NCBI GenBank assembly: GCA_002989075.1 | Contig: PSQN01000015.1 | Location: forward strand, 1,116,001-1,180,000 | Direction: 5' to 3' | DNA length: 64,000 nt | Source of the DNA: Arthonia radiata | Lineage: Eukaryota > Ascomycota > Arthoniomycetes > Arthoniales > Arthoniaceae | Shown: in pieces, positions 15,447 to 51,545 of the stretch | Layout: each line of letters opens with the position of its first letter | Numbering within the stretch: the first letter of the stretch is position 1 | Notes under the pieces: model-generated | Databases searched by the model: none | Told to the model about the DNA's origin: nothing | The model's input: the letters and a program-made list of their open reading frames with translations, nothing else | Position numbers and translations under genes: made by a program

Positions 15447-16670
15447 TCACATGGCACCATGGTTCTTCCTCATTGCATCTGGCAGCTTTTCGTCACGGCG
15501 CACTTCGGTGCCCATGAATGAGTGGTACCATGTGCTCTGTCCATGTTTGACGCGGCAGCCCTCACTCCATTTCTTATCCTCAGCCCGCTGCCAATAGTCC
15601 CCGTCGGCTCCACCAATGGCCTTTTGACTGTCTTGCATACAATCAAGACAGAGGCCTTGACACAGGCCGAGCGCGAGCTCTTGAGCAGCTCTTACTTGAC
15701 CCGTGTAATTGGCCTTGCAGTTGAAACACTGTTTCTCGATCTCTGGCATCGTGAATTCATCCAACTTGTCATCTATCTCCGTGACGCTGGCGAGACGAAA
15801 CGCGTCGGTGAAGGGCTAGGCTTTGCACTTGTGCTCGAGGGCGGCATAGAAGCGTTGAAATGTGATGGCGCAGCACGGATCTGCGTCGAGTTTGCGAAGC
15901 TTCTTGCAGCAGGCATTGAGCTGGCGCTCAAGTACGATCATGATGCGGCCTTTCGCTTGACGAAGCTGACCTGTGAAGAATTAGCAGCGAACTCAACGGG
16001 AACGGGCCAAGCACATACGGAGAGTCCTGTTGTCGAGTTTGCCGGGCGGGATTGGGAGATCGGTGAGGTCCACCAGAGCACCTGTGCCATGGTACATCAA
16101 AGCGTTGGTAGCCTTTTGAAACGCGTCGGCATGATCGAACCAGTATGCTGCGTAGAACAGGCCTTGCAATGCGTCGCGGTCATCATTGCTCATTCCCATC
16201 TTGAAATTGAACTCCGAGTTATGAAGAGCGAACCATTTCTCGAACCAGTCCTTCATTCGATGTAAATCGAATTCGTAGTAGTCCGCAACGAGCCACATCT
16301 GCCAGAGGGTATGCATGCCAACTGCAAGCAAGTCGTCGTTACGAGTGTTGTGTAGCTCGCGAAAGATGATTTCGAGGGCGTTGACATTGCTGACCTCGCG
16401 GGGTTCTCTATCATGTTTCCACTTGTCGGACTGAGCTTTGCTGAGTGCTCTGGAGACCGTAGGCTTGCTAATAACGGCCTCGTTGACCTTGAAGGTTCTC
16501 TGACCCTGAATAGAAGACTTGGGCTCGTCACCGACGCTGAGATCCTCTTTGTGGACATCATCGATGTCTTCTTTGTCTTGATAGTCACAGTAGAGGAGCT
16601 CCAGATCTGGGTCGTCGCTGATCTTGATGATGACAGGAGGGGCAGCTGTGTATTCAATGGGCCTTGTCAT
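15447..16670 (-). pseudogene. BTB-zinc family member A, interrupted by an in-frame stop
   Basis: Same architecture as members B and C in this window: a BTB/POZ-like N-terminal half (NALEIIFRELH ... LWQMWLVADYYEFDL ... WFEKWF ... AAYWFDHADAF ... ALMYHGTG) and a Cys-rich C-terminal half. Exons 16670-16019 and 15970-15447 flank a 47-nt intron (GTATGT ... TTCACAG) in phase 1, the same place and phase as in B and C. In exon 2 the frame meets TAG at 15818-15816, where B and C have Trp in the WPMEFRF motif (TGG to TAG). The same frame then continues for 122 codons with the full zinc signature CFNC ... GLCLDC ... CRVKH ... TWYHS. Either this is a recently disabled gene, or it makes a BTB half only. 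There is no good alternative intron around the stop. Confidence 0.7.
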
Positions 16671-17567
16671 TTTTGAGCAGGACGTCAAGAAGCTCTGGTC
16701 AAGATATCGTGCTCGGTTGGTCCAGCTGGAATGACTGCGCGCAGATTGAGCAAGTTGACCACAGCGGTTATTGACCGAGGGGGGGGTCCGAAGCAACGAT
16801 AATGCAGCAGCGGCTAGGCAGGTGGCATTGAGCCGCTGCAAAGCTAGGATGAACAATCGAGGATGGTGAAATGAGCTGCAAACCTTTGGGAGGAGAAATT
16901 GAAGAGGAAAGGTTAGGAGAGGATGGTACAAAGTGAAGGTTCGGGTTGCAAGAAGAAAGGCGGTCATCAAGCTCTTGAGAGCGGTCAAAGGCTGCGCCTG
17001 AGCCATCATCAATCCGTCACCTACACGTGATTCTACCATATGAGTAGTGTACCTCTGAGACAGGTAGGTACAAGCGAAGCAAATCAGCGCGTAACGCAGC
17101 ATAGAATGCAAAGCGGTGAAAAGGTCGTCTCCAACGATGCTTTCTCCAGGTCTGAGTCCACATTGGTGCAATTGGAAACACTCTAAAGCAGTTTCGAATC
17201 AGCTCCATTGAATGCGTGCCTTTGCACTGCTGGACTTGATTGCAGCAGTGCTTCTTGTTCAATCCCTCCAGGAAAAAGGGGGACGGAGACGAATTTGATA
17301 TCGCGGCCTAATACGGACTAGCTCGCCCGCGTTCTTCCCGGCCTTAATGCAGGACTCGGAGATAGCATCAATAGAGCTTCTATTCATGACCGCCTTGAAT
17401 ATCTCTCGAAGCATCGTATTGTCGTCCCAATCTCTGTCTGAGCAAGCTGCTGAGGGCACCTTTACCTTCAGCAGCCTCTGCCCATCACATCTTCATGCCT
17501 ACAACCCATACCGATCTCCAACCCCAACGAACTCTTCTCACGCCTTCTCCCACCCACCCACACGACC
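16671..17567. other. Intergenic between divergent genes A and OTU
   Basis: About 0.9 kb of shared promoter space. It contains a perfect 9-bp-stem inverted repeat (17224-17251). No supported gene. Confidence 0.5.
17224..17251. repeat. 9-bp inverted repeat GCACTGCTG / CAGCAGTGC
   Basis: Perfect arms with a 10-nt spacer, 554-581 bp upstream of member A. The arm GCACTGCTG also occurs inside the array upstream of member C. Confidence 0.5.
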
Positions 17568-19113
17568 ATGTACTCCGACGAATTTCCTGGTCTCCATCGA
17601 GTCGGGCTGTATGCCTCCAACATCACCGGCGATGGTAAGCACGCTCTATTCAACACGTCTTAAGCCCAGAAAAACGCGTACTAATTTCTTCGTATTAGGG
17701 AATTGCCTCTTCAATGCACTGAGCGACCAGCTATTTGGCAACCAAGCACAACATCAGGAGATCCGCCGCAGAGTCGTGCAGTACATGCGTGACAACAAAG
17801 ATGACTACACACCCTTCCTCGATGTCCTCCCAGGTGGTGCCACTCGACGAAATCCAAAGCGAAAGAATGCGGCAACCTTCTCCTCGAGTTACGACTTCAA
17901 GATCCCCTCTCCTGAGGAGATCGACCGAGCATTCGAAGACCGACTCCGGCGGATGGGTCAAGGTGGGACATACGGCGACAACTTCGAGATTGTGGCTTTC
18001 ACTCGAGCCTTCAGTGCGGATGTCATGGTCTTCCAAACGAATGAGAGGCTGTACTTTGCAGCCCCTCGCACTGCCGATCACAAGACGACATGCTACATCG
18101 CCTATCACGTAAGTTACGCTCTCTTGCTCATTGATAATTCAGACTGCTGACACTTCTAGACTTGGGAACACTACTCATCTATCCGCAACACTAATGGACC
18201 CCACGTCGGTCTTCCCGAGGTTCGGCTCAACGAGCTTACCGTCGAGGAACTCAGCCAGATGAAGACGCCCACCAACGGACCCATCAACGTTCAACAGTGG
18301 CAGATCGACGTTCTGATGAAGTCCTTGTGGTTCCCAGTCGACGAGCATACCGCCATTAGGCTACTCGAAGATTGCCGCGGCAGCGTCGATGACGCCGTCT
18401 CGAGACTCATGGACGAAATGGAATCGCCAGATCGCAGCTCATCAGTCCGAAGTTCAAGCGCTGAGCTTCCGACTACGAAAGAGGGAGACACCACGGACGG
18501 ACCCAACAAGAAGCAGGATCGTAGAATGAGCCGCAACTCAAAGTCTGTGTCTCGCAATCGAGAACGCCAAGAGCGTGATCAGTATGCTGCAAGTCTAAGC
18601 TCAGGCTCGTCCCTCGAGCGTTTACAGTCTGCAACAACACCATCAACCGAGAGCAACGGTCAGCGTCGTCGGAACTTGAAAGTCATATATGATGAGGAGG
18701 ACGAGGACGACTATGATCCAAAAGACGAGGACACCGAAATGGAAGAAGCGACTACTCCACCTCCATTGTACGACGGCAGCACATCTTCAGAGTCTGAGTA
18801 TTCAGTACCGACGTCACCTCCAAAGCCACCTCTCACCCTGAGGCTTAGCCTCAAGCCTCCTCCTCAGTCAGCTCAGGCTAATCAACCATCACTACCCCTC
18901 CCAAGACCCCTTCACAAGGCTGCTCCACCAAAGAAGCGACTGAGCGCTGCTCGTGACATGAAGAGCCTGAAGAAACACGCTCAGAAGCAGCACGCCAAGG
19001 AACGCCGACAAGCTGCATCGAAGCCAAAGAAAGAGCAAAGCACACTCAGCTTCTCGTCCGATGGCTCATCACAGACTGCGGTCAATACCGGCTTCCGCCT
19101 GCTTCATGTCTGA
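17568..19113 (+). CDS. OTU-family deubiquitinase with UBA-like segment
   Basis: Cysteine protease of the OTU class, which removes ubiquitin from substrates. Exons 17568-17634, 17699-18108 and 18160-19113 flank introns of 64 and 51 nt with TACTAAT and CTGAC branch sites; the total is 476 residues. Catalytic features are GDGNCLFNALSDQL (Asp22, Cys25) and TWEHYSSIR, with His163 right after the second splice. Residues about 200-245 (QIDVLMKSLWFPVDEHTAI, then GSVDDAVSRLMDE) look like a UBA/CUE-type three-helix ubiquitin-binding module. The rest is Ser/Pro-rich with acidic (DEEDEDDYDPKDEDTE) and Lys-rich blocks that resemble nuclear localisation signals. The ATG at 17568 gives a short leader typical of fungal OTU1/OTU2-like proteins; an extra upstream exon cannot be excluded. 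Confidence 0.88.
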
Positions 19114-19863
19114 GTGAGCAGGCCTTTTGAGAGGCACACCATTGCTACGACGACTACGACGAAAGAGCGGCTCCTTTAGAGTCGCTCCATCTAATGAGGC
19201 CACGGCTTACATTTGCATTTGACGGAGACACTTACTGCATTTTGGCATTGCATCAACAACAGCATAAGCAGGCTTGGAGCATTTGCGTAGACATTACAAC
19301 TAGTCATTTGATACCGCTGCATTCTCCGGTGGTTGACTGGAGACATCGCGCACAACTACGCATGGCGACGGCGCTTGGGGGAATGGGTTTGAGATACTTT
19401 TCTTTGGGCATAACATTGCATGAACATACTGCAAGGCGCTGGACGGATCATGTGGCCACCGGCATCGGGGCTAATTCTGATATTTGACATCAAATACTCA
19501 ACCTCATGCATGAGTGGGTGAGCGAACATAGCATTCTGCAGACTCTGTAGCGGGTCCGAATTAAGACTCATACGTCAATCCGACGAATCTCATGACTCCT
19601 GTCTCTTGGACCGCTCTCGATGCCAGACCTTGGCCTTCTACTGAACAGTACAAGAAAGGCCTTGCAGGCTGTATACCTTTAGTGCTAAGCGCGGGCGGGA
19701 ACTGTTGCTCAACGTAAGTCCAGTCCGTTCTGTTACAGTCTAATTACTATTCTTCAAAGCTGTTTCATCTGGACACTAATGCTTCCAAACATCCACGCAA
19801 CGGCCCTCCTCCAGATAAAGCCTGTTATACCATCGCGTCTCCTTGCAGCTCTCAGCATGCTCA
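19114..19863. other. Intergenic, convergent 3' ends
   Basis: 750 bp between the OTU gene and the dioxygenase-like remnant. Nothing supported. Confidence 0.5.
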
Positions 19864-20646
19864 TCAATGTATGACTTTTCGAAACACCATGTTCCGCCCC
19901 AGAACTTCATTCTTCCGCCTACTTATGCAGTCATTTCGGCTGAAGTACGCACCGTGCAGGCGCCTATGTCCAGTGAATGCACTCCGACCGTGAAGGAGTC
20001 GCCAATTGTCAAACACTCAGTCACTTAGCGTGGCTTCCAGCGTCGAACGGAAGACGCACCTATTAGCATCCCCGGCTTCAGCTGAAAGTCTATCCACCAT
20101 CTTGGGTTGGTATTGATCACATTGTTCCAATTCGCTGCGGCATTGTACCACTTTGCGACCATGTCGCTATGCAGCGCATCGGTGTCAAATCTGGCACGAT
20201 CATCGTTGTCCCCTCGTGTTACGTTGGCAATACTTCGATACAGTGAAGGGCTCGCCGACAACACTAACATCCTCATTACCAGAGCTATGGGCGTACAGTC
20301 TCACATCGTGGAGGCTTGCTCTATTCTCGTCGCTCAGACACTCGGCAATCCGAGGTCCATCCAGAATTTGTGTTGCGCCGCCCTCGCCATCGGTATGGCT
20401 GAGAATGTGAAAAGCCTGTAACTTCACAGGATCCGATAAATACGTGGTATCATTGTGCGGCGGCTGGTACTGAGTCGTATACGCTGTATCCTTTAACGTT
20501 AGATCGAGTGTCATGTTGTAGTAAGTACCGTAATGCGAATTGCGAACAGGGCCGATCCTTTCGAGAAGATCGTTTGTAGCTCCAACGGACGCCGGAGTGT
20601 TGAGCACAAGAGAAAAGTCCCACACGCGCTGTTTGGCTTCAGCAGG
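19864..20646 (-). pseudogene. TauD/trimethyllysine-dioxygenase-like gene, damaged
   Basis: Homologous to the Fe(II)/2-oxoglutarate enzymes that hydroxylate trimethyllysine or gamma-butyrobetaine in carnitine synthesis. Blocks in order are LLERIGPVRNSHYG, DTAYTTQYQPPHNDTTYLSD (the H-x-D iron ligands), LSHTDGEGGATQILDG, GDNDDRARFD, then, after a probable 44-nt intron (20059-20016), FDNWRLLHGRSAFTG (distal His) and HRRLHGAYF. Catalytic residues survive. However, the frame changes by +1 nt between VVGEP and SLYRSIANV (near 20.24 kb), and I find no N-terminal small domain in the 300 bp before the MFS gene. It is therefore either a 5'-truncated, frameshifted pseudogene or a gene hit by a sequencing indel. 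It lies just downstream of the MFS gene on the same strand. Confidence 0.65.
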
Positions 20647-20949
20647 TTACAAGCAAAAGGGCGAATGAGGACATGCACATCCACTCGGCCGACGCGCCAG
20701 GCCTGGACTCTCTTAAATCCTCATATCGGACGCAGGGTACGCAAGCTATCCTAGTATCCTTATGAGCTGTTTCTCATAGCCAGTCCGGAAAGGGTGAGAC
20801 GCATCATTGTTGCATCCGACTTGATCCGGAGGCATATGTTATCATGCAGTAGTAATGTGCAAGTTAGGCTTAAATAGAAGCCACGCTCACATTAGAGACT
20901 GAGTCCGGCTCAACAGATTCGGTAAACGTAACCTACGAATCACACGACA

Positions 20950-22709
20950 TCATCGATTCTGCCGCTGGCTCAGTCTCTCATTCCGTAGTGAAATAGACAG
21001 TACCAATGATAAAGCCGCCGTGGCAATCACTTGGATCCAGACACACTTGATAGCGTCTAAGACCGCTTGGATCACCGCTTGCTTCTGAGCTGTCGAGAGC
21101 GTGCTGGTCAAAGAAGTACTCACCCCAGCAATACCTTCCTGCACCACCGCTCGTGGTGTGTCGGGCAGAATACGCTGTATGTTATGCGTAGCACGGTTGA
21201 CGAACAAACTATTTGCCACTCCAACCGATATCGCACCGCAGACGGTGTCTACGCACCCGAAGATGGTGCCAATATCCCCCACGTCTTTCTCCTCTACGCT
21301 TGCTGACATTATCGGACCGGCGTTCATCGCGTACAGACCCGTTCCAATGCCGCCTATCACCAAGTAACCATAGAGTTTGCCATGTTCGGTGTTAATCTCG
21401 GTCTTATAAAGGCATACTGCCATGACCAACGCCAGTACGCTGCCCGCAACAAACCACACCTTATACCATACAATGCTCCTAATGAAGAAACCAGATACCA
21501 GCATTGCAGCAATCGCCGTGACCAGAAACGGAAGTAAGCCAACCGCGGACCGGACTGCCGTCTCACCCTGCACGAACTGGAGGTACAGAGGGATGTAGTA
21601 AATCGTCAGAAACAAGATGCCGATAGAGCTGCCCACGAGTATGATAAGAACCCACATCTCCAACGATCTCAAGACGTGGATTGGAAGCAGCCGCTCTTGT
21701 CTCGTAGTAAAGGTAGTGGTGGCTTGCTGGAGCCCGAAGAGAATCGAAAGGATACCGGAGCAGCAAAGTAGCCCGATAATGCGGCCGCTGTCCCAGGCGT
21801 AAAGCGCCCCGCCAAACGACAGAGCCATGATGCCAGAACATAAAGCGCCGGCGAAGAGTAGTGCGCCGATCCAGTCGACGCGTGCGATGCCGGCCATGAA
21901 GCCATTGTTGACAAGGGATGTGTTTCGGGGCTTTGGCATAAGTAGAAATATAGGGAATGTGGCACCGACGAGGATTGCATTGAAATAGAAGCTCCATCGC
22001 CACCCAGCGGCAGTGTCGGCAAAGCCGCCTCCAACTAGCGGCCCAATACTGCGTGTTCGTTTAGTAGGAGTGTATGAAAGCCGCCGCGGAAAGAGCAAAC
22101 TGACATGGTGCCCAGCCCCCAGCTGAAGCCGATGTAACCGAAGTATCGCCCTCGTTTCTCGGGCGTTGTGAGAGTGTTGAGGATGTTGATGATAGCGATG
22201 TAGGTGCCGCTACCTCCAATACCCGCAATAGCTTTGCCAACGATAAAAGAGTTCATCGAGGGAGCGGCGCCACTGAGAGCGCATCCCACCGCGAAGAGCA
22301 GTCGAGCAAGCAACAGGACGTTCTTGCCGCCCCAAAACGCAATCAACTTCCCCCTGACACGGGCTGTGAGTATTCGGTTGTCCTTGTGTCGAGGAGGAGC
22401 TCACCATAGCAAGCAAGTCCCTCCGTTCGCCAACGCATAAGTTACGTTGATCCATGGAAATTTTGATATCTCTCCCAGGTCGTTGATAATGGTGGGTTGC
22501 AAGTTGGCGGTCATGGTGTTTTCCAAGGCTGCTTGCAACTCGGCTAGCAGCAGTGAGGAGCTGAGGATCACCCACCAGACCTGACCATTGATGCCGCGCG
22601 GAGTACGTCGCATCGACGGATGCTCGATAGCGGGGGCGTGAGAGTCGTCTTCATGCTTCATGGGAGTCACGGTGGTCTTCTCACTAACATGCTGATCTGC
22701 ATTATCCAT
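20950..22709 (-). CDS. MFS transporter, DHA2-type (14 TM)
   Basis: Proton-coupled plasma-membrane or vacuolar exporter of the DHA2 branch. Exons 22709-22405, 22353-22105 and 22048-20950 flank introns of 51 and 56 nt; the total is 550 residues. The splices rebuild the family motifs: TCLLWGKLIAFWGGKN (motif A region after TM2) and GLGTIIGPLVGGGFADT (antiporter motif C). About 14 hydrophobic spans are visible, with an acidic/His-rich cytosolic N-terminus. The donor of the second intron is the unusual GTCAGT. A TCATCAGATGA palindrome and half of a 13-bp inverted repeat lie about 180 bp upstream. The adjacent dioxygenase-like remnant suggests a former two-gene unit. Substrate cannot be told. Confidence 0.87.
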
Positions 22710-22891
22710 ACACTCAAGACTATCTAGACAATGAGAAGGTCACGAGGGTGCGAGGAAAATCATGTTTCTGACGATTGGAGTCAGATCTCGGGGGGTGTGG
22801 CTTGTCCTGCCTGATTAAGGGGGGACTTTATGCGCGCATGACGCCATCAGCCATTGAAGCAGTATCCTCAGCGTCTTGACATCCCCTCTTC

Positions 22892-22902
22892 TCATCAGAT
22901 GA
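22892..22902. promoter_or_regulatory. Palindrome TCATCAGATGA, copy 1
   Basis: Perfect 11-bp palindrome about 185 bp before the MFS start; identical copies lie at 28001 and 36597. Confidence 0.4.
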
Positions 22903-23113
22903 ACGTTTCAAGACGTGGAAGGCATTCGCCTCGCATGGCGTGCATGTGTTTGTGCCTTCACCATCGTACTGGCGGCCCGAAATCGAACCATCGGATCGAC
23001 TACGCTATGCCCAAATAGGTAGTCATCCCGCCGCTGACGCTTGAACGGCCCACATTCCGATCCCAATGGCCGTCCGCTTTCAACAGATAGGCGGTTTTAG
23101 AACGTTCATCTGA
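22895..23113. repeat. 13-bp inverted repeat TCAGATGAACGTT
   Basis: Arms 22895-22907 and 23101-23113 are perfect inverted copies about 190 bp apart in the MFS/rhodopsin divergent promoter. The left arm overlaps the 11-bp palindrome. Confidence 0.45.
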
Positions 23114-24138
23114 GTATGAGGGCGTGAGGCGGCGCACGCGGCCCGTCTGGACTCGGCAACGGGAAGGGTCGATGGCGCCGTCGATGACACAGCTGCAGGC
23201 GAATCAAACTGTCGAGGTTTCCTCCCTCCCCGCCACCACGGCTACACTAGCAACCCGTCCTGCAAGTAAGCCGCAAGCTTCCGGGCTGACGCATTGAATG
23301 TCCTTCTGCAGATGTTCTGCGGATGGCAGACTGGCTGCCTCTCAGGTTGAACGGGCAGAACCTGGATTGTCCCGCCTTTGCTTGAGTGTGAGGGCTAACC
23401 CATTGAAATCCTCCCGTTCACGGAGCAGGTGTGAAGATCCATAACTTTGGAGAGTATGCCATGACGTATGAAAGGGCGAGATTGCCTGACATGAGTAGCA
23501 GGCGGCACCCATGAGGGTAAGCCTTCATTCCCCACAATACGCATAGCTTCTCAGAAAGGACTTTGCTCAATGATTCTTCGTTATCGACTCCTCTATAGGC
23601 ACGGCTACATGCGGAATGTATGTTCTGCTTGACTCGATGTCACCGCTCTCATGGCTTATCAAAGAGAGGCGGCTTGACGCCCATCGCTACGCACATGAAT
23701 CGGCGGACATGCATCTGTGATACCATTCGCTCTTTGTAGTACTTGAAGTTTCAGTGAACGGCTGATCGCCCTCAGTAAGCTCACTCATCACCTCAAGACT
23801 ATATATCAAGGCTATCAACAGTTTAGGCACCTGGCAAGGCTTTGTATCAGATGTGCAGCGAAAGGGCTTTGCCTTGCATGATCAAGGGTCTTTTGTGACG
23901 GGCAGCAACTGCTGTGAATCTCAAACAGGAGTGGTGCGGGCTAGGGCCGTCCACGCTGAGGGACTTCTGTCCGTGCATTGTTGCTCCGCTCCTAGATCTA
24001 CTAGTCGGGCCTCCCGCCTCCTGGCGGGGTCCTGACCATACATCAGTCAAAGCCTACTTGTTCGGTTTTGCGGTCTTGATTTCATTTAGCTTGAGCTCGC
24101 TTCTCACGCCGCGTTAATACGAAGCGCGTTTGCCCAAG

Positions 24139-25787
24139 ATGATGCACCATTTCACTGTCAAAGGCATCGCCTTCATCGCTTGTGAATGGGTGCTCACGTT
24201 CATCCAGCTACTTGCTGTGAGCATTCGACTGTACTCCAGGACGTTCCTCACGAGGTCCGTCGGTTCCGATGACCTTGCAATATTGTTATCATTTGTACGA
24301 TTTAGCTGTTCTGTCGCGCAGATGATTTAACGCAGATGATTCCTGCCAGGCTCTCGAAATCTTTACAACCGTATGCAACTTGGAGTCATTTCTCCATGGA
24401 TGGTCCCAACATGAAAGTCAAGTTTCTGCCGCCGATCTCGCACAAGAAACGAAATGGTAAGTCAATGGCACAGTGGAAGGCATGTAGCACAATAAACCCG
24501 GGTATCTATCTAACATGTTTACAGGGAATACATCGGCTACACTGGTGTATATATTGTCTATTTCCTGACGCGCACCTCAATCATGCTCTTCGTTCTTCGC
24601 CTTTTACCCTCGTATAAGAAGTGGCAAGCAAAGGCTGTGTGCGCCCTCTTCGCGCTGAACTTCGCGACTACTGTCTATACATGTGTCACTTTTGGTGTTT
24701 CGTGCATACCGTTCAGAGCCAATTGGGATGATGTTCCGAACTCAAAATGTTTCTCAAAAGATCTGTTGGTGATAACGAACCAAGTGAATGCTAGTGAGTC
24801 CGAACCTCTAGCTCGATTCCGTACTGAGTCCAGCTGATGGCAATAGTCCTCGCTTGTGTATGCGACATCGGAACAGCCCTGGTTCCTCAGTTCCTCCTCT
24901 GGGACGTTCAGATGAGACGCAAGACCAAGATGCAGCTAAACATCGTGTTTGCTCTTGGCCTGGTTACTGCGTTGTTGAGCATTGGCCGTGCAGCCACCAT
25001 ATCTAAGAAAACACTTACAGAAGATAGCACCTGTATGTTGTCTGTCTTGAACACCAGCTCCGGTTAGTTGACAATCCACAGGGAACATGATACCATCTTA
25101 TTACTTTAGCGCGTTTGAGAGCAAGCTGGGCATTATCTTCGCATGTGGTCCAGCCTTACGACAGTTCTACTCATATCAAAAGCGAACAAAGACTTTTCTG
25201 CCCACCAAACAACGACAGCACCCCAATCAAGACTTTGAGAAGATGCGTTGGCGTATCAACCTGAGAGATATCCTCTGGTATCGAAGCGCGCCGATGTCTG
25301 GAGGACGAGTCTACGACGCTGCTCCGATCTTCCGAAGCCAATCTGAACCACCTGGGAACTCGACGAGCAGTGTAGAGACCGATAGGCAACGAAATCGCTC
25401 AATACTTGATCGAATGGAAGGCAAAGTCAAAACACTATTTGGTGGTAGCAGCAAGGGTGTCTCGGTAAGGTCTTTCTTCCACTTACGCGCGTCAGCTGAC
25501 ATTTGTAGACTCGACGTTCATCTTCGTCAAAACACCTACCGACGTCTGCGTCAGATGAGCCGGCCTCCGAAGACACTTCCAGCGGGCGTAGCTGGCGGAC
25601 TTGGGGTCATGCTGACAAGAAGAGTGCTCGTCATACCTCTCCAGGGACATTCCTCATGTCCAATAGCGCAGCTGGTACGGGTGTCTCTACTACTGGTGGC
25701 AGAGAGCCTTCCTCACCGTTTGATGACAGCGAGCTTGCAATCGAGCTAGCCAGTCCGAAGGATGGTCGCAGCTCCCGGAACGTATGA
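24139..25787 (+). CDS. Fungal rhodopsin-domain 7-TM membrane protein
   Basis: Member of the large Pezizomycotina integral-membrane family (Fung_rhodopsin type, related in layout to PTH11-like receptors). Six exons (24139-24294, 24350-24456, 24525-24793, 24847-25032, 25082-25464, 25509-25787) sum to a whole frame of 459 residues. Each splice restores a family block: SDDLAILLSF-ALEIFTTV, LAQETKW-EYIGYTGVYIVYF, TNQVNA-ILACVCDIG and TEDSTW-NMIPSYYFSAF. Seven hydrophobic spans are followed by KLGIIFACGPALRQF, the conserved end of the core, and a Ser-rich cytosolic tail of about 180 residues. There is no N-terminal CFEM domain. Ligand and role are unknown for most of this family. The alternative first ATG is at 24142. 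Confidence 0.82.
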
Positions 25788-29800: not shown

Positions 29801-29861
29801 AGAGGTTTAGCAGGTGGGGCATGGTTGCATTGGAGTTCGCGGCGATTTGTACATTGTGAAA

Positions 29862-31489: not shown

Positions 31490-32969
31490 GAGGGGTTTTG
31501 GTTGTACTGTAGATGTATTGGCGTATTCAAAAGACATGCCAAACGGTCCGTGCTTTTCTGGCAGCTGAGGATTCTCTCCTCGCATTCGCAGCTCGAAAAT
31601 TACTGGTTTGGGCAGTATCTTAAAGGAACGGGCGGCTTCGGTGCTAGCGCGTAGGTGTTGAGTCAGATGCTAGAACACAAGACTAAAGATATTTCATCGA
31701 ACTCTACGAATTATTCAATAAAGACGAAATAGGGAGATTTGTGAGCTGTTCTCTTTCTATGCACATTTCTTAGAATTTCTAGTGTCGCAGCAAGCTGAAC
31801 TAGGTTTGTGGGAAGGTTGAAAGGAAAAAAGCTTGGACCGTTTCGCATGTCTTTTGAATACGCCAATATTGACATTGTACAGAACGTGGTGTGTTGCACC
31901 TCGTGGCCAAACCTCCATGGAGATGTCTTGCTATGCGATACACAAATCATCATTGTTTTCACGGTCAGTTGAGATCTGATGGAGCATTTTGCGCAGCATG
32001 CAACCACCTGACGTGGGCGCACACAGAAATTTCGCAAGCACAGGGCGAAAAGGGGCGAGACCGTCGGGCCTCCCGCAAACCTGGTTCTCAAACTTACTTC
32101 TTAATGAGGGGCTGTCCCTCAATCATGGGCATCCTTGCAGCCACCCGCCTCATCGCGAATTTGCTCTCAAAGGGGAACTGGAAAGATACTCGAACGCCAT
32201 CAGGCAATTTGAATAGCAGACGAGCAGGAGAATTTATAAATCTTCCCCCGACCCATCGACAATTCAGGACAGTCATGAGTCGGGCCGATCTCTTTTGACA
32301 AGCAAGTGACAACTAATTTCCCAGATCGGAAACAAAGTTGGACAAACGCGGCGTTATGGACGATCACAGACCCACCGCCCGCCCGGAATTGAAATTTGAT
32401 GGGTGCTTAGCCGCGAGTCTAAAGTCTGGATGCAGTCCTTTTCGTTGCTAGCATGGAGACTGCAGCTGTGGCTTGAAAATTCTGCTGTGGCGCAGTGCTT
32501 TTCAGCAGCAATGGTTATGCGCCTGCCTTGGTCTGTGGGGTTGCACTGGATAGTAGAGACTGTAGCAAACATATATGAGACTCAAGGCGCCGACAGGAGG
32601 TGTTTGTGTTTGAGTGTTTGAGGCCAGCAGAGGCGCGTGCGATTGACAGGCTCATTAATTGCCCAGACTATTGAAGAGATCGTCATCGGGTGGCCCAAGC
32701 TCGACCTCCCTTGCGCGACCCCCAAATCCATCCCTCTGCCAACCTCCAAGCGCGTCTGCTCCTGTTCTCTTCCTTCCTGCCCATACCACTCTCTCCTCCA
32801 TCCTTCCCGAGACCCTACAAACCACCCTCAACCTCCGCAGACTACTAGGGGTCTATCTTCACCTCTCGAGATTGTCGCATACCACGGATTCAACAAGAGC
32901 GCTGCGCGCTAATCCTTGATTGACTGCGGGCCATTGGCAGCCCTGTCTGCTCGCGCAGATACGCCCACC
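31490..32969. other. Intergenic, 1.5 kb
   Basis: No gene supported. It includes an inverted repeat (listed), an AATAAA at about 31.72 kb and the CT-rich leader of the CSC1-type gene. Confidence 0.45.
31515..31870. repeat. Inverted repeat, ~43-bp arms
   Basis: The left arm (31515-31557) and the inverted right arm (about 31827-31869) share a perfect 24-bp block around TTGGCGTATTCAAAAGACAT, then AAACGGTCC and GCTTTT, with three or so mismatches. The spacing is about 270 bp. No ORF lies between. It could be a small foldback/MITE-like element or an inverted duplication. Confidence 0.6.
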
Positions 32970-40685: not shown

Positions 40686-40779
40686 CCGGGATTAAGGTGC
40701 ACTGTCAAGGGTTTACAAATCATAATCCTAAAGGACGGTGTCGCTTTCTGTATTAGCCCACGTTGCACATAATCTCATT

Positions 40780-41267: not shown

Positions 41268-42293
41268 CTACGGGTACAGGTATCCACCGTTGCCTTGCAA
41301 CTGCGTCGCAACAACACCCTCGTCCCAGACACTCACCGCCTTGCAGACAAGGCCTCCCTCATCAAACTCCAAAAACAACATTCCCCTCACTCTCACCCCA
41401 CGGGTGCCATCTGCCTCGATCCCCATGTACTCGCTCTTTTGCGCACCTTGCCACAAATACTCGATAGCGCCTTGCTTCCCATCCGCCAGGATATAGAAGT
41501 CATGAAACGCCTTCTCGGGAAACGCGCCCATCCCCGCATTCTGCGCAGACACAGCCGCGACGAAGGCATCACGCCCACGGACCACGCTATCATTTTCATT
41601 GATCTCAACATTCTCCGCCGCCAGCGCCGCATTCGCGCTTGCGTTACCGGCATTGACATTCGCGTGCAGCATCGCCATATTCTTACGGAGCAACGCGCGG
41701 TACTCAGCCGACGTCTGCGGGTTTGCCGGAAGCTCACCTGGCGTCTGCGTTGAAAACGGGGGCACCGCGATCTGATGGCTCATCTGCGCCTTCATCCTGC
41801 CGATGGAGTCCACGGTCATCCAGTCCCGGGCGAGCGCATCCGCGTCAAAGACGAAGCGCTCTGCGCCCCACACGCTGTAGCGTCCGTTGTCTTGCAGCGG
41901 CAGGCCGGGGAACGCCGCGGACTGCACGCCCTGCAGGCGGTATAGCACGGCGCCTACGTTGCCGTCGACGATGTTGTATTGGTCGAGCAATTGCAGGCCT
42001 TGTAGCGGGCCTTCAGCGTTGTGGCGCAGTGCGGCGACGGAGGCGGCGCGGGACGTCAAGAGGAGGCCGTCGTAGTTCCAGTGGTGGTCCGGGGCGAGCA
42101 GGGGGCCGTTTGCGCTGGCTTGGCCTTGGCTGAGGTTTATGTGGTAGCGGACGAAGTTCGCGCGGAGTTTTGACTCGTGGGTTGGAGGGTCGGGGATGTT
42201 GTCGAAGGTGGTTGGGTGCAGAGGCCCTGGGGTTGCGGTGGCCATGGCTAAGAAGATCGATGCGGTGAGGAAGACTAGGAGGCTTATGGTCAT
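41268..42293 (-). CDS. Secreted tandem NTF2-fold (SnoaL-like) protein
   Basis: An intronless 341-residue protein with an N-terminal signal peptide (MTISLLVFLTASIFLAMATA, cleavage near residue 21). Two similar alpha+beta halves follow, each with an N-terminal helix, a conserved NVG/EVNENDSVV-type strand, FHDFYILADGKQGAIEYLW and a final KAVSVWDE strand. This is the layout of NTF2-like, SnoaL-type cyclase/isomerase folds. Activity and substrate are not evident; extracellular members are common in plant-associated fungi. TATAAAG on the minus strand (42417-42423) lies about 125 bp upstream of the ATG. The coding strand is C-rich in the 5' half and G-rich in the 3' half, switching at about 41.88 kb. 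Confidence 0.72.
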   Translation of the reverse strand: MTISLLVFLTASIFLAMATATPGPLHPTTFDNIPDPPTHESKLRANFVRYHINLSQGQASANGPLLAPDHHWNYDGLLLTSRAASVAALRHNAEGPLQGLQLLDQYNIVDGNVGAVLYRLQGVQSAAFPGLPLQDNGRYSVWGAERFVFDADALARDWMTVDSIGRMKAQMSHQIAVPPFSTQTPGELPANPQTSAEYRALLRKNMAMLHANVNAGNASANAALAAENVEINENDSVVRGRDAFVAAVSAQNAGMGAFPEKAFHDFYILADGKQGAIEYLWQGAQKSEYMGIEADGTRGVRVRGMLFLEFDEGGLVCKAVSVWDEGVVATQLQGNGGYLYP

Positions 42294-42416
42294 TATGGAT
42301 GGTGTGAGTTGAGTGCGGGCGGCTTTGTGTTGATACCTAGAGAGTGAATGATGTTGATCTGGTCGGAGGCTGTGGTGTTGATGATTTCGGGGTACTGACT
42401 GGACTTACAGCCATGT

Positions 42417-42423
42417 CTTTATA
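42417..42423 (-). promoter_or_regulatory. TATA box of the NTF2-fold gene
   Basis: CATATAAAG on the minus strand, about 125 bp before the ATG at 42293. Confidence 0.5.
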
Positions 42424-43514
42424 TGCTTGTAACATGCGACAACCTACGGACCCGAGCATAGGAGACTGAGGATTCCAGATCATGCATGATACAGCACATT
42501 GGCAGAACAGGCCATCAGCGTACTGTCAGGGATCATTGATGAATACAATTGCTGAGATCAAGGCGACCCCATCGATAGCGCGCGGATATCGAGGACTCCT
42601 CCTGATACTAGCCTTATGCTTAGTCTGCACGGGCTCGTAGAAGGCAAAAGAGCCGCAGAAACCCTGCTCCTGACATAATTGGTGCTCTGGTCGATTCATC
42701 GAGAAAAGCGCCAACAGCCCGTTCAGCTTCCGGGCTTACGTCTCGCCATTGTCGACCTTTGGTATCAGTGTTACAACCTGCACGGCACCAGACGAAAGCA
42801 CCCGTCCTTGGAAGACTATTGCGTGCAGATATTGTCCCACAGCGAACCAAATCAGCTATACCTAAGATGTTGAGCAGTTGACAACCATCCGGAGGAACCG
42901 AAGCGTCAGCGTCAGCTCCTTCTTACAACGCAAGGGTTGGCATTGTGAGCCTCGAGCCGCGCGCATCCGTCAATGTGGGCGATGTATGTGTATATGTCGG
43001 CGGAGACGATGTATAGCTGTACAGGACGGATGGTTTTGCGATAGTGTGTGTCATCAGCTATCTTGAATAGGATGTTTCTGCGTGTCAGCGTGCGTTTGTG
43101 CTCTTGGCTTCTTGGCTCATGCGATGATTCCGTAATGGTGTCCCAGCATGATGCATACCAAGAGTGGAGATGGAGCAATGCGTGCTATGGTTGGGATAAG
43201 TGGAGAGTATGCAGTAGGGCGAGTAGGTACTGTTGTGGCAAGAGTACCTTCACGACTCAACTGTAGAATGAGATGAATGTGGTCTCATTTCTTAGTATCA
43301 TCTCTTTTCGCCGCCTTATGGTCATAGATCTACTCCTTTCTCCGCTCATGCAAACTATGGTGTTATCTTGTTGGAAAATGGGATGGCTGGCAAAAGGCTT
43401 GGCGTTATCCCGCCACCCGATCAATGGGTGAATATTGCTACCTTTCTCCTTTTCAATTCAAACTTCGTTTCCATTACAGAAGGCAGCTAGAAGTTAACAG
43501 CGCGATCGGACTAT

Positions 43515-43570
43515 TGTAGACTTGCTGCAGACTTTCCTGCAGCTCTCCTGCAGCTAAGCTGCTGTTAAGC
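43515..43570. repeat. TGYAG array 1, five ~11-bp units
   Basis: Units TGTAGACTTGC, TGCAGACTTTCC, TGCAGCTCTCC, TGCAGCTAAGC and TGCTGTTAAGC run head to tail (11 or 12 bp each). Ends about 250 bp after the stop of member B. Confidence 0.6.
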
Positions 43571-43817
43571 CGTGGAATTAGCTTTTCGCAAAAAGCATGC
43601 CACGCGATAACATTTGTGCAGACTTGATTTTTAGATGGAAAAGTAGCTGGTGCAAATTTGGGACGACGCTTCGGCTATCCTGTATTTGATCTCTACGTGA
43701 AAGTACTTTTCAGTACTTGTCAAGAGTGCGAGTAGTCGACTTGATTGCAATTGAGGACTGATGTCGAGAGCTGAGGCGTGCTGCCCCCATTCTGGCATTA
43801 TCGTACGCGTTGCTGTG

Positions 43818-45145
43818 CTAGACGAAGTAACCTTGCTTAACCATTGCGCCCCACTGCGACGCGAAGTCCGGAGCACTCGCCACTGGCGCATCAGCCTCCA
43901 TCGGCGCGCCAAGGTTGGAGTGATACCACGTCGGCTCCCCATGCTGTGTCGTGCACGTCTTCCCACTGTTCCTGTACAGCTGCTTCTTCGCATGGAACGT
44001 CTTGTCTGCATCCCTGCCCTTGGACGCATACATACACTCCACACACAGCCCCTTGGAGAAGTACTTCTCAGCCTTCTCGCACACCTCCGCGACAAGCATC
44101 CGGTACGCTTTGCGGCACTTCTCGCATGAGTTTTTACGCGACTTCATCTTGAAGACGCTGAGACGTTTGATCAGGTCGATAATACTCGAGTCCGAGAAGC
44201 GGAACTCCATCGGCCAGACACGGCAGGCTTTGAGCGCCTGATGAAAGTGGACAAAGGCCTGTTCGCAGCACGGTTTAGCAGGCTCGTCGATGAGGGAGCT
44301 AACAAGGTCGTAGAGGTGGTGCTGCATGATGTTGCGGAGGCGGCCTTTGCCAGCGTTGAGACAACCTGTTCGATACGTTAGTCGTCGTCCATAAGAGGTA
44401 GCGCTCAGCAATAGAGTCAAGACTTACGGCCGACACCAGGCTCCAGCATGCTCTTCGGCACCAACAGAGGCTCCAGCGGTCTGATCGGCTGCCGGGCGTC
44501 CAAGTGCCCGACGCCGTTATACATGAGGAATTTGGTTAGCTGGGCGAAGATGACGGCGTGGCCGAACCAGTAGGCCGGTTGTATGAGCAGCATTGCTTCG
44601 CGGACGTGTTCGGCAACAGCTATCTTCATCTCTTCCGTCGTTTCGGCTCTCACATGCGTGCTGGAATATGTATGCCTGACGCGTTCGTACCAATGCTTGA
44701 ACCATTCTCTCATATCGTTAGTGTTGATGTTGACCACGAACTGATTCGCGATCAGGCGGATCTGCCAAAGGCAGCGCCGGTTGACGCTGTAAAAGCGGAC
44801 ATCGAGAGCATCGTGCAGCATCCTCAAGACGATCTCGAAGGCATCGACGTTTTCGACTTTGATGGACCTAGCGTCGTCGGCTGTGTCGCGGTTGACATCA
44901 TCGGAACCGAGCTGTTTGGCTAATGTGGGAGCCACGTTACGAATAAGAGCGGCTTTGACCAGGTAGAGGCGCTGGCGGAAGATGCGAGGATGATTGTCGT
45001 TGAGATGCTGAAGCTCGTTGCGCAGGTCGTCGATGTCGGCCTTGGGTTCGATGTCGTGCACGTAGAGAGTGGCGTTGCCTTCAGAATAGATGTCGCAGAA
45101 GCTGATCTTGAGACAGGGGGGTTTGGCGAAGTTTTGGGTGGTCAT
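43818..45145 (-). CDS. BTB-zinc family member B
   Basis: Exons 45145-44428 and 44365-43818 flank a 62-nt intron (GTAAGT ... ACTAAC ... GAACAG) in phase 1; the total is 421 residues. The N-terminal half has a short beta-rich leader (ATLYVHDIEP) and a BTB/POZ-like domain: DAFEIVLRMLHD, CLWQIRLIANQFVVN, MREWFKHWYE, QPAYWFGHAVIF, TKFLMYNG. The C-terminal half opens with GKGRLRNIMQHHLYD, has a CC pair, KACRVWPMEFRFSDSSI, and then C-x2-C-x23-C-x2-C-x26-C-x3-H-x4-WYHS, a likely zinc-binding module. BTB domains usually mediate dimerisation or bind Cul3; the C-terminal domain is not one I can name. Intact, in contrast to member A. Confidence 0.8.
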
Positions 45146-45952
45146 GACGGGCCTGTGTTTAACGGATAGTACAGACCTTGCTGAAAGGCCTGTAGATGAG
45201 TGGGCGTGAAGTTGAAAAGAGGAAGCCGGAAAGGAAGACAGAGAAAAGTTTTTGGGGATGCCGTTGAGCAGAGCGAGAGCGATAACACATCATGCTCGGC
45301 TTAAGATACCCTGACACATTTCGAAAGTGGTTGGGGATATGGAAAATGGTTGAATTAACAAAGTGAGGGAAAGGCGGCTACAGGTGAGCACTTTTGCTTC
45401 AGTCTTGCAGTACGCTTCTAACACCTGGAATGGGCCGGCGGCAAACATGCCCGTATTTGTGACTCAGCGTTTGACATATTCGCAAAAGTCTCAAAAGCCC
45501 AAGATAGACTAGGAAAGAGCAAGCGTAGCACATCCCTTTCTGGCATCCATATGAGGTCTGGTGCGACTTCCATGACTCCCTTGTAGTGCACTGTAGTGCG
45601 CTGTAGGTCCACTGTAGTGCCCTATAGTGGTGCTGTAGTGGGCTGCAGGTCCGCTCCAAAACGATCCAGAAGAATGCTGAGATTTTCACAAGGCATTATA
45701 AAAGAAACCTATGGCCATAGTACAACAAGCAATCTGCCTGTAGTGGTTCAATATAGACTTTATCACGTCTGTACCTGTAAAACCCGTTTATCTCTGCTTT
45801 ATCTTGTAAGCTGCGTGTTTGCCACAGTGTTGTGCGAGTGACGCGACGGGGTGGTTATGTGTTTGTGCCAAAGTCAGCGATGGCAGCATTGTCTTTTTAC
45901 CTTTGGTCCTATCCTAATGATTGGACAGTCTTTGTCGCTGTGGTCACCGCTG
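45146..45952. other. Upstream region of member B
   Basis: No gene; it contains TGYAG array 2. No clear TATA box was identified. Confidence 0.45.
45582..45654. repeat. TGYAG array 2, seven 10-11-bp units
   Basis: Head-to-tail units TGTAGTGCAC, TGTAGTGCGC, TGTAGGTCCAC, TGTAGTGCCC, TATAGTGGTGC, TGTAGTGGGC and TGCAGGTCCGC. Lies 437-509 bp upstream of the start of member B. Confidence 0.7.
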
Positions 45953-46276
45953 TCACTTCTTCAACTTGGGCCATTCTCCACCCTTTGGATCTGTCGCCCA
46001 TTCCGCAGGAACGGAATGCGTTATAGTTTTGTCTTCACCCGGATTGTACTTCGTGGGACGTTGGACCAAGTGGTGGATCAAACGCTTGGAAGCTTGTTCG
46101 TTTGGGAGTTCGTGGGCGGATATGTGGTTATGGATCTGTACAAACCAGTCGCTGACGTATTTCAGGTAGTGGTGATGCACCTCTGGATCTATACCTTGCG
46201 CTTCCAACTCTTCGATCATTTGTTGTTGGTAAGGGGACTCTCGGATCTCGGAGGGACCATTTTGTTGTGAAGCCAT
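45953..46276 (-). CDS. Small orphan protein, paralogue 1 of a pair
   Basis: A 107-residue intronless frame. It is a hydrophilic helical protein without signal peptide or membrane span: YQQQMIEELEAQGIDPEVHH, then HYLKYVSDWF, ISAHELPNEQ and a Lys-rich end. It aligns along its first 60 residues with the 105-residue frame at 47606-47923 on the same strand (Y...(I/M)..EL, HxHY, IS.H, QA/QE). Two related reading frames kept open argue that both are real genes. Function unknown; it sits between the BTB-zinc genes B and C. Confidence 0.5.
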   Translation of the reverse strand: MASQQNGPSEIRESPYQQQMIEELEAQGIDPEVHHHYLKYVSDWFVQIHNHISAHELPNEQASKRLIHHLVQRPTKYNPGEDKTITHSVPAEWATDPKGGEWPKLKK

Positions 46277-47605
46277 ACAAAATTTTGCTGATCGGGCTGT
46301 ATTCGTTTTGCAAGTTCGAAAGGCTTAATACTGATCGTCGACCACGATGTGCACTTGCAAACCGCCAACGAGATCACAGACTGGTGGCAGCAATACTGCG
46401 TGGAGTCACGTCTGTTGATAGCTGCCACGTAGCTAATCAAACTTGCCACGTGCCGACATACCATTGGCAACGATCAGAAAGGATCCGAAGGATTCGACGG
46501 GTGAAACGAGAGCGGGTGACCTCACTTGAGGCGGAAGAGATGCTGCTGCGTTCGAGAACCAATTTGGCTGAGTAGTTGATGCACATGCGCCGACTTTGTA
46601 GTATGCTCCGATTTCAAGCCAAAGGGAGGTACCCTAGTACGAGGCCACTGTCTGACACTATTTGTGCCGTTAGGTACACCTCCGCGTGAGCACTTGGGGA
46701 ATCAGCAAGCGCACCGACCGTTACCCATATAATGCCAGAGCAATGCTAGTCACCACAAGATACGCACTTTCGGTAGTTTCCCAGACTAAGCATCGTTGTC
46801 GGGCTTGTGCGCCCCCGGAATTTGCAGGCACCTCAGCGGTATCTGCATCACTCACTGCTGCATGCTGTGGAATTGTATCGACCACTTTTCGCTCGCTTAG
46901 CCCAAGACGCTTATATCTACTTTCTGACTGAGCTCTGACTATATCAACTGCCTCTTGTGTTGTGGGTGCCTTGGCGGTTTCCTATATCTCGAAAAGCTCT
47001 GAGAACTGCTCGCGTTCCGCCTGAGCAACTGAAACCCGACAATGACGTCTTCAGCTCGTATCTAGTGAAATTAATGGAATGAAACCTAAGGAGCCATCTG
47101 GATACCGGCCGCTTAAAGCGGTCTGGTGTTCATTTTCCAAGTAAAAGTGTCTTGAGACAGTTGTTTACCGCAATGATTGCACGTGACCTTATACCTTGTC
47201 TAGCGCTGTTTGATCCCCTATCCAGCGGACGCACAGGCCAAAACGCGAAAAGTCGCGTAAATTACGCGTGTCTAGTACTTTTTTGACTAGATACCGGATC
47301 GTTACATGAATCGCGAAATGGGTTGGTCGGGATGTGAAGCAAACGGTCTGGATCATTGCGGTCTTGGTAGCGGTAAGGCCAGGCTCTGCTGAAAGGCGCT
47401 GAGGAAGGGCCAGCAACCTATCCTGGGTCGCCACGCATACGCACACCAAACGTAGCCCGCCTGTTTGGTCATTAGTAGATTGTGGAATTTGTAAAAGAGG
47501 TGACACTGTGGTGTGAGTCTGTAGCAAGAGGGTCGCAAATCGAGTGTCTAGTCATGACACGTTTGTAGGCTTGCGTCGGCTCGAAAAACCTGATAGTTAC
47601 GTCTA
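46277..47605. other. Intergenic, 1.3 kb
   Basis: No supported gene; it contains the palindrome at 47254-47268. Confidence 0.45.
47254..47268. promoter_or_regulatory. 15-bp palindrome CGCGTAAATTACGCG
   Basis: Perfect 7-bp arms around a central A, embedded in CGCG-rich sequence between the two small paralogues. Looks like a dimer binding site; no further support. Confidence 0.35.
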
Positions 47606-47923
47606 TCACAACTTCAGTGAGGTCGTGTCTAGTAAGCAAGCGGGTGAGACGTTGTTGTAGCCTACGAATGCTATATCTGAGTCCAATGTAGGATTGACCT
47701 CGTGACCGTCCCCTCTCTTTGATCGCAACTGGCGGTACCGTGACAAATGAGCACCGCCCTCCTGTCCTGCGCCATGTTCGGAGATTGCTTTGGTGTTTTG
47801 CGCACGAAATTGGTTGAACAAGCTGAAGTAGTGCTTGTGTTGGTCTTGGGGGACCGCGTTCTTGTTCAGCTCATCGACGATATGCTCGTGGTATGCGGTG
47901 TTTGTGTGAGTGTTGTCAGACAT
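47606..47923 (-). CDS. Small orphan protein, paralogue 2 of a pair
   Basis: A 105-residue frame from ATG 47923. Residues 10-60 (YHEHIVDELNKNAVPQDQHK, HYFSLFNQFRAQ, AISEHGAGQE) parallel the gene at 45953-46276: same strand, same length, same spacing of the HxHY and IS.H motifs. The C-termini differ; here the end reads SDIAFVGYNNVSPACLLD and may hide an unspliced intron after SKRGDGHE. No known domain. The spacing of 1.3 kb suggests an old tandem duplication. Confidence 0.45.
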   Translation of the reverse strand: MSDNTHTNTAYHEHIVDELNKNAVPQDQHKHYFSLFNQFRAQNTKAISEHGAGQEGGAHLSRYRQLRSKRGDGHEVNPTLDSDIAFVGYNNVSPACLLDTTSLKL

Positions 47924-50306
47924 GGCGAATGTATGGATTTGGTGTGCGTCGAGGCTCTATGTGCTGATGGCGAATGGAGCTGTTATGTATGTGTCAAAGC
48001 TAAGGATGTTTATGATGGTTCTGGTTTAACCTGACAATTATGGCCGTTTACCCGTACATATATACCTCGTCCTTACAACATTGACAGATTGCCTTTTAGA
48101 CTGAACATGCTGTACGCGAGAATGTAAGACGCCCACTGCTGAGCTTGATGGACAGCTGTCAGTTCTGAGTTCACAACAAGACATCACGGCTACAGTTCAA
48201 ACAAAGGCTGATTCAGCCAACTCACACCATCGACCAAGGCGCTTCGAGGTGTCTCAACTGGCCTCGGGCTGCTCCGTGATCAAGAAGTAGCCTCATATCA
48301 GAGACGTGTTGTTACCTTGGCAGCAACAGCTGTGCAGTTCGCAGGTCAGTATAAGCTGGCAACTCGCTGAGGCAGACAGATGTTGCCCGCAAGGTCCGCC
48401 AGTAGATCTGGAAGCGTTTGGCCGGCTGCGCTTCTGCCACGAAACATGTTGGAACTTATCGCAGGCTTTGTTGTAGCATGGTCGCGACCAATGGGGGTTT
48501 GGGTCGTTTCAGTCGTCGTCAGTAACCACCTGTTCATCCCGACGTGTACAGTAAGGCACTATTGGTTTTGCCTTGAATGAAGCTAACTGAGGGCTGCGTC
48601 GGCGGTAGATCACGCACCCGCCACCATACAAAATACGTGTCGAAGTCATGGACGGTTCATCTTGCGAAGGCTGAGTCGAAAGGGAGCCACTTCCATCAAG
48701 GATGTAGGTGTGATTTGACACCCATTGCTCGAACGTTTGTTTGCGAGGACCCCTCAACCCCACACACGGCAGGTGCTCAGCGCAAGTGAATTCTCTCAAT
48801 ACGGAGGAGTCATAGGGGCCAATCGCTTATCAATATGCTCGTTCAGCGAAGCTTATACCAAGCTGCCATATCCAGCGAAATCTACACGGCAAAGACGGCC
48901 TTCTTCAACACGCTGGAAAGACCTGGCAGAGACCCTACGTCACGCTGGTTTCAAGTCCTGCATCTTGCTTGGCCCTAGACCTACGAGGCTTCTCCGTGGA
49001 GCCTGAGAAACGCGAGCATGGTGTTGCGCTTTGTAGGCGGACAAGTCAACGAAGCGTTTGAGATTCACGCTCTGCTCGCAACTGAGAAACAAGAGGCGGG
49101 AAGTTAGTGTGCTTGGCCAATGATGTTGAAAATCAAGGGAACACAAATCAGCCTCCCTTAGAATGTTGGCGGCCGGTATGTTAGTGTCAACTCCGTACGA
49201 AGTACACAAGTTCGCACGAGGTGGAACGACGGAAGGGTCGGAAGGGAGACCAACGTGAACAACGGGAGGCCGGAAGGCCGGGAGAGGCAAAAGGAACCTA
49301 ATAAGTTCGGTGACGCCGATGATCACGTGCTCATGGACCTTTCCTTTTCGGGCTTCTGATGATCTCTCTTTTGACGTTCAAGCCGGGGACAACTTTGCAA
49401 CGAGCTCCAGTCAACCGTGTCAACTGCGCAAGCTGACAAGCTAGAGTATGTCCAATCATCTGAACCGGATCTTTGCATCAGCTTTCATCTATGATGATGA
49501 TTAGTACAAGCACGATTGCCCCACAACGATGCGTCCAGTCTTCGAGCCATTGCAGCAACCATGGATCAAGTCTGCTCTGATCTCAGACGCGCAAGCTATC
49601 ATTTCGCAGTCTTTCAGTCCAGTAGTGCGGACAAGTTATGTCTAGGTCCTGCAAGGACAGGCTTGGGTGAAGATGATGATCACTTATTGTTTTTACCACG
49701 GCGAAGAAGTGCCTGGGGAAGAGATGGCGAAAATAACTTGTAAACGATGTGAAAGCAGACATCACAAATGCTAAACTTCACGTAGACGTTGTAGCACTGC
49801 TGTAGCACTGCTGTAGTACTGCTGCAGCACTGTTGCAGCACTGTTATAAAGGTGCTGCAGCACTGAGCAGCGACCTTGCGACCCGGTCAAAGATATCATG
49901 CAATCGAGGAGTCGTAGCCGTGGCTGAGAAAGGTAGGTAAATGCGAAGTGAATCCGCGGCTGAGCGTATCTCATTATCTCCTGACGAGAGGAAGTGACCT
50001 TCTGAGTGTGAGGTGCTGCGGTTTTCCGGTGACTGTTGATGATGTACGCCTATCAGTCTACCCGCTTCTTTGCCCCGCTTGGTGAGCGTCTCAATCGAAG
50101 GTCATCTCGAATGCGGGTGCTTTCTTGCGATGCTTGCTCTCGAGCTACGCTTACGGATGCCATTCTGAGCTTGTACGCGCAACCTCAGGTTCGCTGCTGC
50201 CTTGAGCTCTATCTCTTCCCTTCTCAAAATCTCTCAAACTCGCATCGCTTCTTCAATTTATTGCCTTCACGAGCTTTGCTCAGAAAGACCTCTCTCTTGC
50301 GCGAAG
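47924..50306. other. Intergenic, 2.4 kb
   Basis: No gene I can support. It contains TGYAG array 3 near its right end, inside the upstream region of member C. Confidence 0.45.
49790..49866. repeat. TGYAG array 3, seven 11-bp units
   Basis: Exactly seven 11-bp units: TGTAGCACTGC twice, TGTAGTACTGC, TGCAGCACTGT twice, TATAAAGGTGC and TGCAGCACTGA. The sixth unit is also a TATAAAG sequence. Lies 441-517 bp upstream of the start of member C. Confidence 0.75.
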
Positions 50307-51545
50307 ATGGCCTTCGTGGACCATTTCAGCCCGTTGCGAGGGTTAGAGATCCATATCGCAGACAATGGAAACGCACGACTACACGTTCACGACATTGAGC
50401 ATAAAGAACAACTTGATGACACCTGTGATGAGCTTTACCAGGTTAAGGGCGACTCACCCTCCCTTGTGAAGCGTCAACGCATCTTCCGCATTAGCACGAG
50501 CATATTCACTAACGACAAGGGTGATGCTGTCTTGTCAAAGTTAGAGGGAAAGATCGAAACTCTTGGGTCTGGGAAGCCTGCATCTCTCCATGTCGCGATT
50601 GTAGACGCCGTGGAGATCATCCTGCGAGAAATGCACAGCAAGCGCCACGAGATGTTCCAAGGGGTCAAGACCAGAACCATCTGGCAGATTCGCCAAGTCG
50701 CCGAATGGTTCGACATCAACATCAGCAACATGTCAGTCTGGTTTGGTCTCTGGTTCAAGCGTCAGGAGCAGGCTCTGCGCCTCGCAACGCAGCCGAGACT
50801 GAATGATTCCGAGCAGACTCGGAAAAACAACTATCTGCTGCGTCTCATGTTTCACGCACAGCTCTTCCATCCAGCAGTGTGGTTCGACGAGCCCCGGGTC
50901 TTCGCGACAACTACCAAATACCTCATGTACAGTGGCCGAAGCCGCGTGCGTGAGAACAAGCCCCAGAACGTCACCGTGGCAGAGGATGCAGTCGAACACC
51001 GCATTACTGGTATGTTGACTCCACTACTTCTCTTTTGTGACTTCGCACAACTAACGTCACAACTAGAGCGTATCAACAACGCCAAAGGCCGCCTTCGCAA
51101 CCGCCTGCAGCACGATCTCTACGACAAATGCAAGCAGCTCGTCGAAGACGATGCCGCTGGATCCTGCTGCCGCGACGCCTTCTACCAGTTCCACAAAGCG
51201 CTCATGAAATGCGACGTCTGGCCAATGGAGTTCCGCTTCCACGATGCAAGCATTGCTGAGCTCATCCAGCGGCTAAAAGGCTTCAGAATCCAGCTAATGA
51301 GCACGTGTGGGAAATGCAATCTCAACTATGATAACATCGTGAGGATGGCCTGCCAGAGAGCCGAATACCAGTTTCAAGGACTGTGCTTGGAATGTGTGAA
51401 AGACTCTAGGTCTGCAGATACGTACGAGAAGTACAAGGCGAGGGAGGAGAATACGCGGGGTGGTAACCTTGCGTGCAAAATCGCGCACAAGAACCCGACG
51501 TGGTATTACTCGAACATCAGTTTCAATAGCGAAGATGACGAATAG
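50307..51545 (+). CDS. BTB-zinc family member C
   Basis: Exons 50307-51009 and 51067-51545 flank a 57-nt intron (GTATGT ... ACTAAC ... AACTAG) in phase 1, exactly where members A and B are split; the total is 393 residues. The open frame runs through the intron, so an unspliced reading would insert 19 residues. BTB-like half: LHVHDIEHKEQLDD, DAVEIILREMHS, TIWQIRQVAEWFDIN, VWFGLWF, HPAVWFDEPRVF, TKYLMYSG. C-terminal half: AKGRLRNRLQHDLYD, CC, KCDVWPMEFRFHDASI, then C-x2-C-x22-C-x2-C-x26-C-x3-H-x4-WYYS. The nearest relative here is B. An in-frame upstream extension to 50202 is unlikely, since alignment with B begins at MAFVDHF. Confidence 0.82.
   Translation: MAFVDHFSPLRGLEIHIADNGNARLHVHDIEHKEQLDDTCDELYQVKGDSPSLVKRQRIFRISTSIFTNDKGDAVLSKLEGKIETLGSGKPASLHVAIVDAVEIILREMHSKRHEMFQGVKTRTIWQIRQVAEWFDINISNMSVWFGLWFKRQEQALRLATQPRLNDSEQTRKNNYLLRLMFHAQLFHPAVWFDEPRVFATTTKYLMYSGRSRVRENKPQNVTVAEDAVEHRITGMLTPLLLFCDFAQLTSQLERINNAKGRLRNRLQHDLYDKCKQLVEDDAAGSCCRDAFYQFHKALMKCDVWPMEFRFHDASIAELIQRLKGFRIQLMSTCGKCNLNYDNIVRMACQRAEYQFQGLCLECVKDSRSADTYEKYKAREENTRGGNLACKIAHKNPTWYYSNISFNSEDDE

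Follow-up and report, generated by a model that had tools for sequence, protein, structure and literature searches.

Three divergent paralogues with one common intron and a cysteine-rich C-terminal half in Arthonia radiata

The window analysed here, a stretch of 64,000 nucleotides from Arthonia radiata (assembly GCA_002989075.1, contig PSQN01000015.1, positions 1,116,001 to 1,180,000), contains three paralogous loci, A, B and C, within 36 kb. Member A can be translated on the minus strand from 16670 to 15447: its first exon (16019..16670; 217 codons plus 1 nt) and a 48-nt intron (15971..16018; GTATGT..CAG) are followed by an exon 2 region (15447..15970) that carries an in-frame TAG at 15816-15818 and is otherwise open to 15447. 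Member B, also on the minus strand (45145-43818; 421 aa in all), consists of exon 1 (44428..45145), a 62-nt intron (44366..44427; GTAAGT..CAG) and exon 2 (43818..44365), and member C, on the plus strand (50307-51545; 393 aa with the intron removed), of exon 1 (50307..51009), a 57-nt intron (51010..51066; GTATGT..TAG) and exon 2 (51067..51545). Exon 2 of both B and C encodes a CC pair and a cysteine/histidine (C/H) signature. As the first-pass annotation had proposed, each gene is split once, at one position and in phase 1: all three introns are of the GT-AG type, and the split codon falls in a single column of the A/B/C alignment, five residues N-terminal of the first residue of an [AG]KGR motif. 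Because the intron of C is a multiple of three and free of stops, the unspliced frame of C is open too. The frames of B and C are open and their splice signals canonical, and in B, in C and also in A the G+C content at codon position 2 is lower than at position 3.

B and C are divergently oriented and 5.2 kb apart, in agreement with the spacing of about 5 kb given earlier, and no ORF of at least 150 aa lies between them. Two small ORFs in this interval, at 45953-46276 (-) and 47606-47923 (-), have a weak similarity to each other over 42 aa (24%; E 4e-4, for a single comparison), and each has a single additional match, the two overlapping on contig C2 (2502150-2502425; E 3.0e-4 and 1.1e-11); they may perhaps represent a second small paralogue family. 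Downstream of C and close to its 3' end, the opposite strand carries a tandem-repeat-rich open frame of 2834 aa (51948-60452, minus strand) for which there was no Pfam match at E 0.001. Elsewhere in the window are a U2 spliceosomal RNA gene (13292-13472, minus strand) and, just after an alcohol-dehydrogenase-like ORF, a 42-nt inverted repeat (31516-31868) that is 93% complementary and has its arms 269 nt apart. Pfam searches with 20 ORFs of the window returned hamartin, calcineurin-like phosphoesterase, Npa1, MFS and OTU, together with DUF92, ADH, a PHM7-type channel, SnoaL and DUF3431; with the U2 RNA gene and the shortness of the introns, this gene content points to a filamentous ascomycete.

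The identity between members is low in both exons: 31.0% (exon 1) and 42.4% (exon 2) for C and B, 25.2% and 34.6% for C and A, and 28.6% and 30.0% for B and A. A search of the 33.5 Mb genome (16 contigs) with C matched exon 2 of B at E 7.1e-38, exon 1 of B at E 1.1e-24 and A at E 1.3e-33, which, with the identities per exon, places three paralogues where they had been annotated. Besides C, the genome queries were B and, for A, the first exon, exon 2 of A being left out as a separate query; all were run at BLAST sensitivity, and match counts are lower bounds. At this sensitivity, they returned A, B, C and a single unconvincing line at E 0.194, and we rejected further genomic copies. A DNA pattern for GLCxxC occurs at seven places in the genome, namely A, B, C and four unrelated frames, and the reversed control pattern also gave four matches. 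Relatives of the family were absent from one prokaryote scan and from one viral scan. These results support A, B and C as a paralogue family with a common, old intron. The earlier view of an old and highly diverged family is thus borne out by the common intron and by identities of 25-42% per exon, but three genes are what was found, and to call them an undescribed system is too strong.

One of the three is probably no longer a complete gene. Read past the intron, the frame of A meets the TAG (15818-15816) at codon 269, and the next stop is codon 392 (15449-15447). The first of these stops lies upstream of the first C-x2-C, with the CC pair before it and the whole C/H signature after it; as assembled, A therefore does not encode the signature. 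The first-pass annotation, which had counted A as a family member, was right about its locus, intron and CC pair but overlooked this stop. It is conceivable, if unlikely, that A is intact, its stop stemming from misassembly or being removed by splicing: the frame is open across 391 codons bar one, and the signature is kept. However, by the GT/AG rule there are three frame-keeping alternative introns (45-150 nt), none of which matches the branch-site motif that we scanned for, and each of which covers sequence conserved in B and C. We also considered repeat-induced point mutation (RIP). Its composite index is -1.02 for A, -0.56 for B and -0.71 for C, against -0.54 for the window; it is not raised, and a RIP signature over A was rejected. 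Given the in-frame TAG and the poor support for alternative introns, we regard A as probably either a pseudogene or truncated. The decay might extend to the whole family, such that all three are relics under little selection and A is simply the one already broken, as the TAG, the high divergence among the members and the lack of longer ORFs between B and C would allow. We regard this as more improbable still than an intact A, since in B and C the full frames are open, the splice sites canonical and the cysteines of the set all kept, and the RIP indices are not raised.

The conservation of the C-terminal half is concentrated in its cysteines. Read directly from the translations, the signature is C-x2-C-x22-C-x2-C-x26-C-x3-H-x4-W in C, with spacings of 2/23/2/26/3/4 in B and, beyond the TAG, 2/22/2/27/3/4 in A; a set of at least four Cys/His residues with near-fixed spacing is thus present, differing by one residue at two places. 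The anatomy first described for this half stands with regard to the spacings and to the CC pair, which is found in all three members, but the motif given as AKGR is GKGR in B, and the signature of A lies behind its stop. In an alignment of the three (A being read with an X at its stop), eight of the ten exon 2 cysteines of C are invariant (C268, C269, C283, C315, C318, C341, C344 and C371), as are one of its four exon 2 histidines (H375) and W380; the single cysteine of exon 1 is not. The earlier count of five cysteines and one histidine was accordingly too low, with eight cysteines and one histidine invariant in exon 2. The excess of conserved cysteines in exon 2, where pairs are 30.0-42.4% identical, is significant (Fisher p = 1.0e-4), albeit in a test that is weak because it includes only three sequences that come from one genome and are mutually related.

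On this pattern, zinc binding by the C-terminal half is plausible. In C, residues C315, C318, C341 and C344 would form one C4 zinc site, and the CC pair, C283 and the C-x3-H would be available for a second. Predicted structures were of too low a confidence to model a zinc site: AlphaFold reached a pLDDT of 45.1 for unspliced C with an alignment of six rows and of 39.5 for its second exon by itself, run with no alignment, and a Foldseek search with the former gave 117 matches, none of them at E <= 0.001 (best 50 of 117 listed).

The first-pass annotation could not name the C-terminal module, and our searches agree: no Pfam or NCBIfam model reached its cut-off for this half. The best lines were at chance level: for exon 2 of C, Pfam BTB_KLHL33 (PF21536; E 0.2, with 12 bits where the cut-off is 27) and CLIP_SPH_Scar (E 0.23); for the C-terminal half of B, Pfam DZR_2 (E 6.3); and for the part of A that follows the TAG, NCBIfam galT_1 (E 0.18). 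Among PDB sequences, matches to the C-terminal half were at chance level (best E 0.75). A C-terminus of the type GLCLDCM ... C-x3-H-x4-WY is, we presume, common in uncharacterised ascomycete proteins, often labelled as BTB domain-containing or hypothetical; this group would have the C-terminal pattern in common with A, B and C and come closest to the reading frame of A. A text search of the literature for GLCLDCM-type peptides found nothing. We consider the family ordinary, and the view that it is an already-known kind of protein leans on this presumed ascomycete pattern.

The N-terminal half had been described as BTB/POZ-like, a description that found no support in Pfam, hhalign or hmmsearch. 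No curated cut-off was reached for this half either: the Pfam BTB model (PF00651) gave no line for exon 1 of A, B or C. None of the PDB sequence matches was to a BTB domain. We then compared the family with a profile built from 22 of 30 BTB loci fetched from the same genome, the other eight being left out. Aligned to this profile by hhalign, the stretch of the alignment that spans residues 10 to 149 of C reached a probability of 0.2%, and 49 of 100 column shuffles equalled or beat the A/B/C columns; four held-out BTB triplets reached 97.7, 99.8, 99.5 and 98.8%, although some of these are easy controls, having close paralogues that remain in the profile. In hmmsearch, the same profile gave negative scores throughout (A, -0.3; C, -0.9; B, -1.2 bits). 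With no Pfam match, scores at shuffle level and negative bits, we rejected a BTB label on sequence; the label rests on resemblance by eye.

That resemblance is found at about C 96-110, where V-x2-V-[DN]-A-x-E-I-[IV]-[LF]-R-x-[LM]-H is BTB-like in part, and where a trimmed hhalign run placed its best segment; the untrimmed run placed its best segment elsewhere. A genuine BTB/POZ domain, able to dimerise or to bind Cul3 and joined to a C-terminal half that would recruit substrates, would also suit the poor model (pLDDT 45.1), in which four strands precede two helices, and a genome that has cullins (five exon-level matches) and many BTB genes, although the presence of cullin genes carries no information on binding by A, B or C. 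Set against the profile results, these points leave such a domain a possibility that we rate somewhat below even: a very diverged BTB is retained because one motif and the order of strands and helices fit, the model being too poor to count.

The genome's own BTB genes are numerous. We scored at least 60 exon-level BTB matches, of which 55 were over the Pfam cut-off (three of these only with neighbours), and many are clustered on contigs C1, C2, C14 and C15. No similarity between this BTB expansion and the A/B/C family could be detected: six-frame searches with the A/B/C profile, covering 31 loci (30 of them BTB loci) and then 20 stretches, and thereby 59 of the 60 BTB matches plus flanks of roughly 1 to 1.5 kb at either end, gave best E values of 0.35 and 0.31, and a relationship between the family and these loci was rejected. 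What A, B and C have in common with BTB/POZ genes (PF00651) is thus the short motif seen by eye and the clustering of paralogues in one genome, whereas similarity at the profile level is undetectable. A BTB-domain orthogroup is listed with the expanded gene families in work on psychrophilic Dothideomycetes (PMC11412873); nothing links this orthogroup to the A/B/C family. Nor was the C-terminal module described in those portions of the literature on fungal BTB families and their expansion that we consulted.

Cumulatively, we favour, at a probability of roughly 55%, a small, old and local family of two-part intracellular proteins that combine an interaction module with a cysteine-braced half and putatively act as adaptors or scaffolds. 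The half encoded by exon 1 would be a protein-interaction module, possibly of a very diverged BTB type, and that encoded by exon 2 a module braced by the conserved cysteines; an intracellular location is suggested by N-termini that, by eye, are not signal-like, and the most likely job would be that of a binding adaptor or scaffold. That the locus instead encodes a zinc fold new to description (the C4 site plus the second site), joined to a non-BTB N-terminal module and restricted to a narrow fungal group and a single locus, seems to us improbable. Should the cysteine-rich half of this putative adaptor family prove to be a zinc fold, zinc binding would offer a testable property for a module reached by no Pfam or NCBIfam model. 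Otherwise, A, B and C are a normal small family with one probably dead copy, and the main use of the analysis is to withhold from them a BTB label that their sequences do not support.
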